The notes under the pieces were generated by a model. The model had not been told where the DNA came from, searched no databases, and saw nothing but the letters and a program-made list of their open reading frames with translations. A program made the translations under genes and the position numbers. From NCBI GenBank assembly GCA_029378245.1, contig JARKIF010000001.1:4506464-4570463 (forward strand): DNA of 64,000 nt, read 5' to 3'. Origin of the DNA: Roridomyces roridus. Its lineage: Eukaryota > Basidiomycota > Agaricomycetes > Agaricales > Mycenaceae. Positions 23,400 to 64,000 of this stretch are shown piece by piece (within the stretch, counting starts at the first letter, position 1; each line of letters starts with the position of its first letter).

Positions 23400-24440
23400 C
23401 GTCAGCTCGAATGCAAAATGTTTGTGACCAAGTTGCCGTGTTCGATCCACGCTTGGAAGTTGTGGTTCTTTTTTTTTGTCATCTTCTCTTCTCCTCCCCC
23501 GAATTCTCAAGATCTCAAGTCGAAGATCATTTAAATAAACCTCCACAACTTCGGACAACACTCACTGGCAGTCGCCGGCAAGTCGGTTTTCCAAGTCGCT
23601 GGACCTTGGCTGCCTGGCACCTTCGACGCTGGCAACACCTGAGCGCCCAATACCGACGTTAATTCCTGTCTTGCCAAGATGTTAACCAGAACTTGCGGAT
23701 TCATTCACATTGACGACCGACGACTTGGCTGGGATGGTTCGCATCTTGTTTCGTGGAATCCACTTGTGACTTGCCCTGTTCGATTCAGGCTTGGTTCCCA
23801 GGAACTGACCAGCTCCATGTACTCTTTTTCATGCCAGTTTATTGGACCTAACCTAACCCATTCGCTGTTCCCAACCCACTGGACCTCTGGCAAGATATTT
23901 GAGCGCTCAACTTTGCCCGACCAGGTCCTTGCAGATCAACAATGGAAGCATTGGACTCTTGGATAGTTCACCGCTTGCTTCGTACTCATTAGCTCTTGGG
24001 ACTTGCCCTGTTCGATTCAGGCTGGTTTCCCGTTCATCAACCATGGTGGCGTGTACTCTTTTTCCTGCCAAATTTCTGGATCTTCAGGTGAGGACACCGA
24101 AGTTGAACCTGCCTGCTTTTTTGGCCGCTTTGTCATTAGTATTTCCTCACTTGGCGATTAAGTAGCCATTTTTCATCACCTCTGTAAGTTGGGGAAGGGA
24201 TAATCGCGACATCAACAACCTTGGGGGCACTCAGTACTGAATGCTCATTGCATCCTGGTTCTGCTTCTGAGCTCCAACTGTACAAACCCGACGTTATAAA
24301 GTGCTCCCATAGATGTATCGACCTAGCAATGATCATAAGGACTATCCCATCGACGAGTTGCACAATGTATAGACGGGAACTGCTCTTGGGCTGTGGGACT
24401 TGTCCTGTTCGATTCCGGTTCGGTCCCATATGAAAGACAA
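23400..24440 (+). repeat. SINE-like tRNA-derived repeat block (block A)
   Basis: Four copies of a B-box-like motif in the context CTTGCCCTGTTCGATTCAGG occur near 23,437 (weaker), 23,769, 24,001 and 24,398. The last copy is preceded at the correct spacing by TTGCACAATGTATAGACGGG and GAACTGCTCTTGGGCT, so it resembles a complete tRNA-derived promoter head. The arms do not fold into a standard tRNA. The block matches 6334-6870 (inverted) and 26.5-27.3 kb. Confidence 0.55.
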
Positions 24441-49390: not shown

Positions 49391-49472
49391 AGCTGAGGTG
49401 GATGGACATCGGCTCGCCGAATCCGCAACTGAGCTCAGCATCCTCACATTGATGATTCGAAGGCATCTGACG

Positions 49473-49590
49473 AGTATTCCAGACAACGACATCGTCGCTT
49501 GTGGGATGGCCCTAGGGTATCCGGGACGTGAAGGAACATTACGATTCGCCGAGAAAGGTGCCGCTGGACGAGGTGTTGGAGATTGGGTAG
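49473..49590 (+). pseudogene. Nitroreductase-family C-terminal relic, frameshifted
   Basis: The frame reads IPDNDIVACGMALGYP and then needs a one-base shift to continue VKEHYDSPRKVPLDEVLEIG and a TAG at 49588-49590. Both parts are typical of the C-terminus of FMN-dependent nitroreductases. Some upstream codons in the same frame (from about 49,400) may belong to it. The catalytic body is absent. It is similar to the tail of the second nitroreductase fragment at 63716-63832. Confidence 0.75.
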
Positions 49591-55189: not shown

Positions 55190-55940
55190 CATGTCCAGCC
55201 TCCGGACGTTTACTCCTCTTCATTCATTTGCGCCTATGTCAAGCGCTGGGCACTTCATTCCTCCGGTCTCGACCACGTCAAGCTGTTATTTTGGGCATCC
55301 AGTTCCCATCCATTCATACGCACCTATGTCATCCAGCGCTGGGTTACTCCATTCCTCCGCGATCGAACGTGTTCACCTGTTATTTTGGGCATCCAGTTCC
55401 CATTTCATTCACATGCACCTATGTCCTCCACCGCTAGGTTGCCTCGTCCGCTATCGTCCGCGTCGAGTTCTTTTGGGTATCCAGTTCCCATTCATACGCA
55501 CCTATGTCTTCCAGCACTGGGTTGCTTCCTCCGCTATCGAACGCGTCGGGATGTTCTTTCGAGCATCCAGTTCCCATTCTCATACGCACCTATGTCCTCG
55601 AGCACTGGGTCGCCTCGTTTGCTATCGAACCCGTCGAGTTCTTTCGGGCATCCAGTTCCCATTCATACGCATCTATGTCTTCCAGCGCTGGGTTGCTTCC
55701 TCCGCTATCACATGTGTCGAGTTGTTCTTTTGGGCATTCAGTTCCCATTCTCATATGCACCATGTCCTCGAGCACTGGGTTGCTTCTCCGCTATCGAACG
55801 TGTTGAGTTGTTCTGTCGGGCATCCAGTTCCCATCCTCCCAGCCACCTATGTCCTCGAGCGCTGGGTTGCTTCCTCCGCGATCAAACACGTGGAGCTGAT
55901 CTTTTGGGCATCCAGTTCCCGTCACATTCGGGCATCCAGT
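55190..55940 (+). repeat. Minisatellite of ~80-88-bp units
   Basis: About nine imperfect units, each containing GGGCATCCAGTTCCCATTC, then CACCTATGTC, CACTGGGTTGC and CCGCTATCGAACG. Units vary in length by a few bases, so all three frames stay open over long distances and give misleading repetitive ORFs. Confidence 0.85.
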
Positions 55941-59606: not shown

Positions 59607-62212
59607 AGTAAGCCCAACACCGAGTGAAAAGCCCGCTGATCAAATTGTTGTAGATCCCAATCCTGTACCTCCTCCTGGCGCTGTATCGGAGACATTCGTC
59701 ACCGGCACGAGTACCGTGATTGTTCCTGTACCTTCCACAACAACCGCTGTGGTCATAGCTACTGCAACGATCACACTTGCGCCGGGAGGTACGCCCGTCA
59801 ATGGACCAGTTCCTTCCGGAATATCTCAACCTGGCGCGACGACGCCAACGTGGAGTAAATTTCATTGTTCCTGCTCTCATTCCTGCCTGATCACGTATCG
59901 CAGACCCAAACATCGTTCCCCCAACCTCCGTTTCGAGTGTCACCTTCACCTCTCCTCCTTCCTACACGACAGTAGTCGCCGTCCCAACCGCGTCCAACTC
60001 TCCGCCCAAGAACATCACGGGTCCGCCGGGCGATACGAACAGCAACGGCGACGACTGGTGGCTCCTAGTATTCCCCGGCATCATCGGCGGTCTACTCCCG
60101 CCTGATATCGGCATCCCCGGCGGGACGACACCCACTGCGGCACCGCCGGCTGATTGGACTGGCAGTTGGGTTGATCCGGATCCTACTTCTACGAGCACTG
60201 CGAGTCAGAGCAGTACGAGCGGGGCTGCTTGTTCACAGCCGACGGCGGGGTACTCGTTGCCGGATGATCCGGAGAACGCCGATTGGGAAGACGAGGGGAC
60301 TGATCCGGACCGGAAGAAGAGAGGAGTCAATAACGAATTCAACCCAGTCGTTCGATCGAGTTTGGAGCGTCGTGCCGACCCGCGTTGTACGTTCATATAT
60401 TTGCCCCTCGGTTTTTGTTTGACCTCTCACCCAGCTATCGGTGTTAACGTCTGCAGCATCGTGCTGGTTAATTCGGTCTCTGTGAGCTTGGTAGCAGGGC
60501 AGTATTGGAGTATTGGAACGAAGTTGCCTATTGGGACGGGAAGCAGACTTTCGGTTACGCAGGTCAACTCGCGGCCTGTCGGGAATGGAGCGAACACCGT
60601 GGCTCGTGAGTCGTTTCCTCGCTCTTTCTATACCACGAGGCTCACAATTTTCGCGCAGAGGAGCACATCTTCGAGTACGGGCTCTTCCAAGTCAACATTG
60701 ACTGCCCTCACGTGCCCGTACAGGTTGGGATACATCAACCAATTCTTCCAGGTCGCCAGAACGGCGGGTGTATCATGCGATTGGTGCGATTTGTCCAGCT
60801 CTCTTCTTCGGCGTGACTCACATCCAGCCCACAGGATCCAGGCTAACGTCTTCAGCTTCACTCGGCGGGATGGAAGTAACCTCGGAGTCGCGTTGTTGAA
60901 CGCGATTGATACGGCAAGCCGTCTCGTTTTTATTTCCCCAGGAAACTAATCTTAAACAGGTGGCGAACATGGTTTGGGTGAGTTGCCTCCCTCCCTATTC
61001 CCAATGAACCTTACCTATATGCTTCAGGTAGACACACCGCTCAACCAAGCCAAGTCCAATGTAGTCAACCAGAACAAAGCGAGCCCGAACAGCCCTCCAC
61101 AAAGCAACTCCATCGACGCTATCATAGATTTCAAGACGTCGTTGAATCAAATCCAGAATATTGAATACTTTATCCGAAATTTTGGAGCGCTGGGAGCTTG
61201 TACGGCTGTTTTCTCCTTTCATGAGATTGAATCTGCTTAATTAGGAAACACAGACTTCGGTAACACCGCTGCGATCTTCCAAGCCACTGCGTTGCGCGTT
61301 CAGAATCTCTTGGCTGAGATCACGCCCGACACTCCCGACGCCAACCTGCCCGTCGAATTCAACGCGTGGTTGCGCAGTCTCGTGGCCACGTACCCAGATG
61401 GGTGCACGTATGTTTCTCCATCCATACAGAGATGTTCCATTAACGTCGGTGCAGATCCCGGGCCACCAACACCTACAACTACTACGTGGCCAAGATGAAC
61501 ACGATCAAAACATCTGCGAATCCAGTACCTGATTGCGACTTACCGCTCTACAATGCTGGTATTGCGCCTCAAAGCTTTACTTTTGGGGTACGCGACGGTG
61601 TCCCTCGTCTGAATTCTTTGTCTGACTATCGGTTACAGAACCTCATCCCTCCTGCGCCGACCTTGCCGGCATGTGACGTTCCTGGGACACAGGGAAACAT
61701 AATTCTCGGGCAAGACTCGCAAGGCAACGACGTTGTTGAGGCTGGTGTGTTTAGGACTATGGGATCTGGGAACGGGGTGCGTATGAAAGCCAAGCGCAGA
61801 AACTCGCTGACAGCGGTCTTTTCAGCAATTTTACGCACTTGGTAGCGGCACCTCCCTCGCCGGCATCCACTGGGTTGCCCAAGATCTGTCTGCTGTATAC
61901 CCCAACTGCGGCGGTGCCTTCCAAATCCAACTCCAAGATCCCAGCGCAAACTTCCCCGACGCCAACATCGCACTCAACTGCAACGGGCAGAGCGGCAACA
62001 ACATCCGCGCACCGTTCAACTTTGTGTTCAACAACCAGATATTGCAGTGCCTTCTGCTCAACCACAACGACGGCACGAGCCAGTTTGATACCATTTGCGC
62101 TTCGTCGACTGCGGCGGCGGGGACGTGTGGGAATTCGGCAATTCAGGCACAGGCGGGGACGTTCCCGCTTGCGACGTTGTCGACGACGAATTATGCGTTC
62201 CGGCCGATGTAA
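59607..62212 (+). pseudogene. C-terminal part of a large secreted protein
   Basis: A Pro/Ser/Thr-rich stalk (PVPPPGAVSETFVTGTSTVI) is followed by AACSQPTAGYSLPDDPENAD, WEDEGTDPDRKKRG with a Kex2-like KKR site, and LERRADPRC. A long globular region assembled from many short exons follows: VCSIVLVNSVSVSLVAGQYW, EHIFEYGLFQVNIDCPHVPV, VDTPLNQAKSNVVNQNK, FQATALRVQNLLAEITPD, LPACDVPGTQGNIILGQDSQ, HWVAQDLSAVYPNCGGAFQI and the end NYAFRPM (stop 62210-62212). The exon order and motifs match a family of secreted or wall-attached Agaricomycete proteins I remember but cannot name. No start or signal peptide lies upstream. Some exon joins between 60.8 and 61.3 kb do not give a clean frame, so it is probably decaying. 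Its missing N-terminus is most likely the half at 53.2-54.4 kb. Confidence 0.55.
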
Positions 62213-62582
62213 TACTAATTTCATCCCCCATTTGTCGTTTGTTTTTTTTGGTATCAGTGCTGTTCAATGTGATCTTCCTCCTGAAACTTGGACGTAGATC
62301 GGGCGAACGGGTCACGTCGTTACATTGAGCTGGACCATCGATTCGGGCTGCAGCCTGCGCTGCTCCTGCAGGCTGCCAATGGTGCTCGACTAATATTTCC
62401 AATCGGGCTCCTGTGTATTGCCACTGCGAACACGGTATACGGTCCATCTGCCGAGGTTGAAATTAGAACGTGGGTTTGCTCTGCGTGGTACTGGTCATTT
62501 GAATGTACCGAATGCATTTCGCATGTCAATGCGGTGGAGCATGCGGCGAATCGTGATTACACGACTCTCACCTCTGACTCTC

Positions 62583-63376
62583 ATGTCCTCTTGGATTTCT
62601 GAGTTCGTAAAAAGTGTCCAGGCTCTCAACCACGCGGTTCTTGTGACCTCGCAGCGTTCACCAAGGACCGGAAGCCCCCAGGGGTGGGACAGCTTTAAAG
62701 GTCAAGCTGGGAATCTCACCTGGGGATCGACCATTGTGAGTCGGGAGCTGGATCCAGCGCCCAGCACATCTGATAACACATCCAGGCAACGTTTTTGGCG
62801 AGCGTTCAGGCAAACATCATTGCTTTATCATACCAAGACAACTCCACGTCGCTCAAAAGGGCCACGAACGCATTTGGATTCGTGGGTGTTACGCTTGACG
62901 TGCTCGCCGCCTGCTTTGGCCTCATGGCAGCTTCCGGTCTGGAGCGCCGAATCTCCGCTGTCGAGACACAGGTCAAGGCCATCGACCACGCTTCTATCGC
63001 TAAGCTGGAGGACGCGAAAAAATTTCTGACCGAAAGAGAAAATCGTCGCGCCCATGAAGACATTCTGCCGTTGTTCGGCGACGCCAACGATTTCACAGAT
63101 CTCCTGATTAGCGTAGCCACCAAATGCCGGGACCGCGCAGAGGTTCTGGCAAAAGGCACGACCGAGAGCGAGCAACCGGCACGGGCGGCTATAGTGGGAC
63201 AGCTGCCTGGTGTACTTCAAATGCCGAGGTTGCTACACGAAATCCAAGCGTCGGCCGTCATTGGAAAGGCATCCACGGTTGCCTTGATCCTTGGCATCAT
63301 TTGTTTCTTTTTATCGGTGCTCCTTCTCGCTGCGTCTACTCAGCCGCGTGCAGTCTGGATTGCGGTGACAGTGTAA
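62583..63376 (+). CDS. Fungal membrane protein with two helices and a coiled-coil-like loop
   Basis: Two exons: 62583-62735 (MSSWISEFVKSVQALNHAVL) and 62786-63376, joined by a 50-bp GTGAGT..TCCAG intron, giving 247 residues. Exon 2 carries ATFLASVQANIIALSYQDN, a helix at NAFGFVGVTLDVLAACFGLM, a charged helical region (LERRISAVETQVKAIDHASI, KLEDAKKFLTEREN) and a second helix KASTVALILGIICFFLSVLL near the C-terminus. This layout (soluble N-terminus, helix, coiled loop, helix) is common in uncharacterised Agaricomycete proteins. The intron boundaries and stop are unambiguous. Function unknown. Confidence 0.75.
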
Positions 63377-63715
63377 TTACACTTTCACTGGCGTATCCGG
63401 GGGTCCTCATGGTTTTCGTGATAGATGAGGATAAGGAGCCCGCCGCGGTGAGAATTATTCCCACTGTCTGATGACTCGTCAGTTGACAAGGGAAATGCTT
63501 TGTAGGGGCCATTGCTGGGGCGTGGAAATTCGAATCCATAGGTTGTAGAGATAGTTCGTCTTCCGTTGCGTGCGACAGTGGAAATGGTTGTCGAGTGCCG
63601 GTATTTAGAAACTTACAGGCTGGAAAAACGAACGAACCCGTGAGCCAACGGATGCCGTAACAAGGCACCTACGCCTTAGTATTTTCGTTTCTACAAACGA
63701 GGACTTTGCAACGTT
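63377..63715. other. Spacer between the membrane protein and the truncated nitroreductase
   Basis: 339 bp with the two 3' ends facing each other (convergent). Nothing else seen. Confidence 0.45.
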
Positions 63716-63832
63716 TTACATCCCATAAATCTCCAACACCTCGCCCAACTGCAGCTTCTTCGGGAACACATAATTCTTCTTCACCTTCTCCAGATCAGGA
63801 TACCCCAGCGCCATCCCACAAGCGACGATGTC
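63716..63832 (-). pseudogene. Nitroreductase 3' end, cut off by the TTAGG array
   Basis: Read on the minus strand from the repeat boundary, the frame is DIVACGMALGYPDLEKVKKN then YVFPKKLQLGEVLEIYGM and a TAA at 63716-63718. This is the C-terminus of an FMN-dependent nitroreductase-family protein, in good frame with no stop. The rest of the gene (about 180-200 codons expected upstream) is replaced abruptly by repeats at 63832/63833. Confidence 0.8.
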
Positions 63833-64000
63833 TAGGTTAGGTTAGGTTAGGTTAGGTTAGGTTAGGTTAGGTTAGGTTAGGTTAGGTTAGGTTAGGTTAG
63901 GTTAGGTTAGGTTAGGTTAGGTTAGGTTAGGTTAGGTTAGGTTAGGTTAGGTTAGGTTAGGTTAGGTTAGGTTAGGTTAGGTTAGGTTAGGTTAGGTTAG
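63833..64000. repeat. (TTAGG)n array, probable telomere
   Basis: 168 bp of perfect pentamer reaching the end of the window, about 33 units, with no variant repeat. The G-rich strand reads 5' to 3' toward the window end, as expected for a right-hand chromosome terminus. The pentamer TTAGG differs from TTAGGG, the usual repeat in filamentous fungi. Confidence 0.8.

Follow-up and report, generated by a model that had tools for sequence, protein, structure and literature searches.

A nitroreductase coding sequence ended by a telomere in Roridomyces roridus: probable terminal truncation followed by new telomere formation

Introduction

How does a telomere come to lie directly against protein-coding sequence? 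The right end of contig C1 of the mushroom Roridomyces roridus raises this question. We analyzed a stretch of 64,000 nucleotides (the window), the final base of which, base 4,570,463, is the last base of the contig (4,570,463 bp). An earlier note on this DNA had described a chromosome end fused directly to a nitroreductase coding sequence and proposed that a break had been healed by adding a new telomere. For Magnaporthe (Pyricularia) oryzae, sections of PMC7367193 and PMC8381367 describe simple terminal truncations to which telomeres were added de novo. Limited searches of the literature on the genomes of R. roridus and Mycena and on telomere addition yielded no publication of the junction analyzed here.

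Results

The terminal (TTAGG)n array of C1 comprises 168 bp of perfect repeats, is terminal in the assembly and has its G-rich strand pointing outward (Table 1). The window contains 30 matches to (TTAGG)3, compared with 0 in each of 100 dinucleotide-preserving shuffles; outside the array, TTAGG units stand two or more in a row at one site alone, over 10 bp at 23847. On the inner side, the array abuts non-telomeric sequence at a single base, as expected of de novo telomere addition. The minus-strand codon GAC starts at 63832 and adjoins TAGG, confirming that the repeat begins exactly where coding sequence stops (63832/63833). Read into the array, the nitroreductase frame remains open for only 3 more codons (41 in all). 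The last chromosomal base before the array is C, with no evident seed; on the plus strand, both paralogues described below have G next, after GATGTC/GATAT, from which we infer that the seed at C1 probably amounts to 0 bases. Further inward, ~8 kb from the telomere, the window holds a degenerate tandem array (55258-55920; period 88, 7.6 copies, 78% matches).

Table 1. Features at and near the right end of contig C1 (window coordinates).
Feature	Coordinates	Strand	Remarks
Telomere array (TAGG + 32 x TTAGG + TTAG)	63833..64000	+	Reaches the end of contig C1
Nitroreductase-type gene, final 38 codons with stop; 5' part missing, telomere in its place	63716..63832	-	Homology to the C423 copy and P0039
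3' flank of the terminal nitroreductase gene	63477..63715	-	Homology to the C423 copy, running past the stop codon and ending at ~63477
Diverged partial copy of this gene type (3' part), 14 kb inward	49410..49584	+ (opposite to the terminal copy)	P0039 residues 216-273, 46%

The minus strand from 63832 to 63716 translates as DIVACGMALGYPDLEKVKKNYVFPKKLQLGEVLEIYGM followed by a stop codon. This 38-residue tail is 92% identical over residues 2-38 to a translated segment of contig C423 (C423:368601-368711), and its best match among homologous proteins is the C-terminus of a Mycena filopes nitroreductase (P0039; 68% over 38/38 residues). More generally, it aligns with the C-termini of nitroreductases from Mycena and relatives. 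Alone, the tail gave no Pfam match; a related open frame in the same genome, on C48, matched PF00881 (4.8e-09). No Rfam family was found across the window at gathering scores. The terminal piece is thus recognizable as coding sequence by homology and not by openness alone. The 39 codons without decay counted in the earlier note correspond to these 38 codons plus the stop; the frame is indeed open, but with so few codons left the absence of decay is a weak point.

Comparison of the terminal copy with the C423 copy revealed 5 substitutions at 114 coding sites and 0 indel events, as against 25 substitutions at 193 sites and 12 indel events in the aligned 3' flank. The coding part is thus better conserved than the flank (Fisher p = 0.016 for substituted sites), as expected for a once-functional gene. 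Three of the five coding differences change the residue. Inspection by eye of the C-termini of three Mycena homologues (P0039, P0033 and P0038) showed that the terminal copy keeps the commonest residue at K19 (2/3) and I35 (3/3) and departs from it at Y36, where all three have H. The tail therefore appears to have spent much of its history as part of a gene under constraint, but with three altered residues, one of them departing from all three homologues, constraint at this end is not proven. Thirty-eight codons are too few to date the truncation event.

The closest relative of the terminal copy in the genome, the C423 copy, lies 4.1 kb from the C423 telomere. It matches P0039 in four pieces (residues 53-280), one of which has two internal stops, and it contains an inverted repeat with 60-nt arms that are 90% complementary; because of this piecemeal match and the inverted repeat, it looks broken as well. 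The partial copy 14 kb inward of the C1 telomere is 74% identical in DNA to the terminal copy and carries several indels relative to C423. Both copies extend upstream beyond the point homologous to the junction, and the interrupted gene continues past the junction in these paralogues and in homologous proteins. A second nitroreductase type is present at C48 and C480. A protein search of the genome with P0039 found no orphan 5' half of the gene; other loci matching before residue 190 were C423 and C48 only. When the genome was searched with the DNA of the C1 end (62206-63832; 1,627 bp), we obtained the query itself, the 75% piece at C423 and the 74% piece within the window, and nothing else, so that this search, which skips simple and very common words, found no second copy of the C1-end locus in the assembly.

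These copies bear on an alternative in which no full gene ever resided at this end: a failed end would have been repaired with a small nitroreductase piece, through break-induced replication or end-joining, and then capped. The C423 homology spans just 355 bp (63477-63832) and stops on the inner side, as a captured piece might, although this stop could equally stem from a change in C423. The second partial copy indicates that pieces of the gene do move, and parts of PMC8381367 describe the capture of internal sequence onto chromosome ends in Pyricularia. Against this, the assembly contains no near-identical donor: its best DNA match reaches 75% identity overall, with 95.6% over the coding part and 87% at those flank sites that align. 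The age of the C423 match and the missing donor argue against recent capture, and we consider this alternative unlikely.

A search of the assembly for comparable ends identified TTAGG arrays at the ends of at least 12 contigs (C1, C7, C13, C24, C113, C135, C212, C334, C335, C423, C442 and C469), a lower bound, since the search covered junctions at which the five bases ahead of the first complete repeat start with letters other than TT. Every one of these contigs terminates in a single array, 159-189 bp long, that points outward and is preceded by a flank of its own. The six-unit TTAGG pattern occurs 14 times genome-wide, always within 200 bp of a contig end and never in the interior. The arrays account for 327 of 356 forward 20-mer matches; the remainder (29 forward and 22 reverse) lie inside contigs among the matches listed. 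All 12 arrays sit at the right end of their contig; no left end was found to bear one, and CCTAA is absent from the opening 300 bases of 11 contigs. This one-sidedness, itself unexplained, is probably an effect of assembly or orientation. It is also what lends some credit to a misjoining of telomere reads to an internal contig end, which we regard as very improbable given the single outward array with its own flank on each of the 12 contigs, the six-unit pattern that never falls inside a contig, and the sequence that several telomeric ends share with other contig ends, like real subtelomeres. The left ends of C13, C57 and C458 share sequence with telomeric ends.

Telomere-like units also occur internally in a dispersed repeat family: among the interstitial (TTAGG)4 sites listed, 10 of 12 lie in related dispersed repeats (L001-L006, L053-L055 and L057), and five of the copies bearing such a site share ~600-790 bp at 98.7-99.7% identity. 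We considered interstitial TTAGG as the seed of telomeric ends; no link was found.

Next to the telomere of an ordinary subtelomere, one would expect sequence that is present at other ends. At C1 this was not observed in the sequence tested: blastn of window positions 1-63832 gave no match to the C469 end (8.3 kb), to the flanks of 11 other telomeres or to six short segments of other ends. The C423 piece that matches the C1 end by the genome search itself lies near a telomere, at a distance of 4.1 kb. The claim that a subtelomeric spacer is lacking holds insofar as no shared sequence was found at this end, but it does not set C1 apart, as the sequence beside the telomere is single-copy, or almost, at 8 of the 12 ends, where single-copy denotes a flank with no match in DNA searches that skip simple and very common words. 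Since other ends likewise have no shared subtelomere, a junction without a shared spacer appears by these searches to be common in this genome, and the C1 end would be one of a class and no oddity.

The flanks were searched with the last 150 bases of nine ends jointly and with C1 (1,627 bp), C113 (602 bp) and C423 (604 bp) singly. Eight ends (C1, C13, C113, C135, C212, C335, C442 and C469) match themselves only, with the 74-75% pieces in addition at C1. At the four others (C334, C24, C7 and C423), the sequence beside the telomere has a second copy (92-100% identity) that extends beyond the junction. The last 150 bases of C334 are found unchanged at C335, 20 kb inside the telomere, and near the left end of C13 (C13:4028-4177); the last 148 bases of C24 are identical at C469, 9 kb inside; and the last 74 bases of C7 are part of a repeat with 10 further occurrences, of which 9 lie no more than 25 kb from a contig end. 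This C7-type repeat, which starts at about CTAACATATTATCCGCC (L095, L096 and L097, and the last 75 bp of L032), is enriched near contig ends and is possibly a transposon.

The uncut copies allow the seed bases to be read directly (the slash marks the junction). At C334, uncut ACTT/CCCAC compares with ACTT/GGTTAGG, and at C24, uncut CTCG/CAAGC compares with CTCG/GGGGTTAGG, which has two extra G; the in-register match is 0 bases in both cases. At C7, uncut GGAT/GGGAT and GGAT/AGGTTAGG, compared by eye, match in register at 1 base. At C423, uncut GGTGG/CTAAG and GGTGG/TTAGG match at 2 bases.

Three of the 12 telomeres lie inside reading frames (C1, C113 and C423). At the right end of C113 (L036:440-1501), a 354-residue open frame with a PF00270 match (3.7e-12) enters the telomere. 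Its PF00271 match, which is below the curated cut-off, breaks off at profile position 90 of 110; the helicase frame is cut by the telomere within the C-terminal helicase domain. Homologues, some of which are named RecQ, continue past the cut for 45 (P0049, Mycena metata) and 310 residues (P0050). Telomere-linked helicases occur in other fungi, as noted in part of PMC8381367. At C423, a frame of 488 residues, with tetratricopeptide matches that are sub-threshold only, enters the telomere. An internal copy on the same contig is identical at 1398 of 1511 aligned bases, the last few of which fall within the array, and its open frame, 970 residues long, extends across the position of the junction. 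As a control, an adjoining open frame of at least 354 codons was found at 1.1% of positions in the C1 window and one of at least 488 codons at none; neighbouring positions are non-independent here, and the two thresholds were set after the frames had been seen.

At the nine other ends, the frames of seven were submitted to Pfam (all but C24 and C334), and none gave a match above cut-off. The junction frames of C7, C13, C135, C212, C335 and C469 (71 residues) matched no Pfam family, even with E values up to 1 allowed. The frames of C442 and C469 (146 residues) had Pfam matches only below the curated cut-off. None of these frames was counted as a cut gene.

Discussion

We interpret the right end of C1 as a terminal truncation inside a subterminal nitroreductase gene, by break or erosion, that was capped by new TTAGG repeats, most likely through telomerase; we assign this reading a probability of about 75%. 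An intact nitroreductase gene would once have resided near this end. The tip would then have been lost, together with everything further out, and the exposed end capped with new repeats. What is left beside the telomere would be the coding remnant seen today, 38 codons with their stop, and the 3' flank behind it. New telomere addition is the best explanation of the junction, as the earlier note had proposed, and it is also backed by the uncut copies at four other ends. It is weakened by the fact that the uncut sequence of C1 is known from paralogues only, within one assembly. The break in that proposal is less secure: a double-strand break and erosion after telomere failure are indistinguishable here.

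The closest known parallel is M. oryzae. According to the portions of PMC7367193 concerned with truncated elements, 17 of 23 carried seeds of 1-7 nt and 5 of the 6 others ended in C. As far as these sources go, the two systems share repeats joined straight to truncated sequence after a seed of at most a few bases, differences among ends in what lies beside the telomere, and the loss of tip-proximal genes; at C1, too, the last base before the repeats is C and no seed is evident. By the same accounts the systems differ in that truncation in M. oryzae was demonstrated through cloned new ends and strain comparisons, whereas one assembly is available here, and in that its repeat is TTAGGG and many of its cases involve telomeric retrotransposons, as opposed to TTAGG and a nitroreductase gene. 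The TTAGG repeat is reported at chromosome or scaffold ends of the Agaricomycetes Boletus edulis (PMC12134998) and Rhizoctonia (PMC7884421) in the relevant parts of those papers; in an excerpt of PMC10100673, most of the 21 Basidiomycota examined had TTAGGG. Terminal truncation with new telomere formation is already established in fungi, and the C1 end is a clean new instance of it.

The chromosome ends of this mushroom might turn over generally by repeated terminal truncation and recapping, making the telomere a moving, gene-deleting boundary. This broader proposal, for which we see even odds, draws on the 3 of 12 telomeres that lie inside frames (C1, C113 and C423) and on three that cut sequence continuing elsewhere near contig ends (C334, C24 and C7).

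Taken together, the C1 case illustrates how chromosome tips can lose genes. More interesting than this case alone is that a whole set of healed ends can be read in a single mushroom genome, in which five candidate healed junctions are defined to the base, four of them with the uncut sequence in the same assembly. With this set, existing reads could serve to test the rule by which telomere addition is seeded in an organism with TTAGG repeats.
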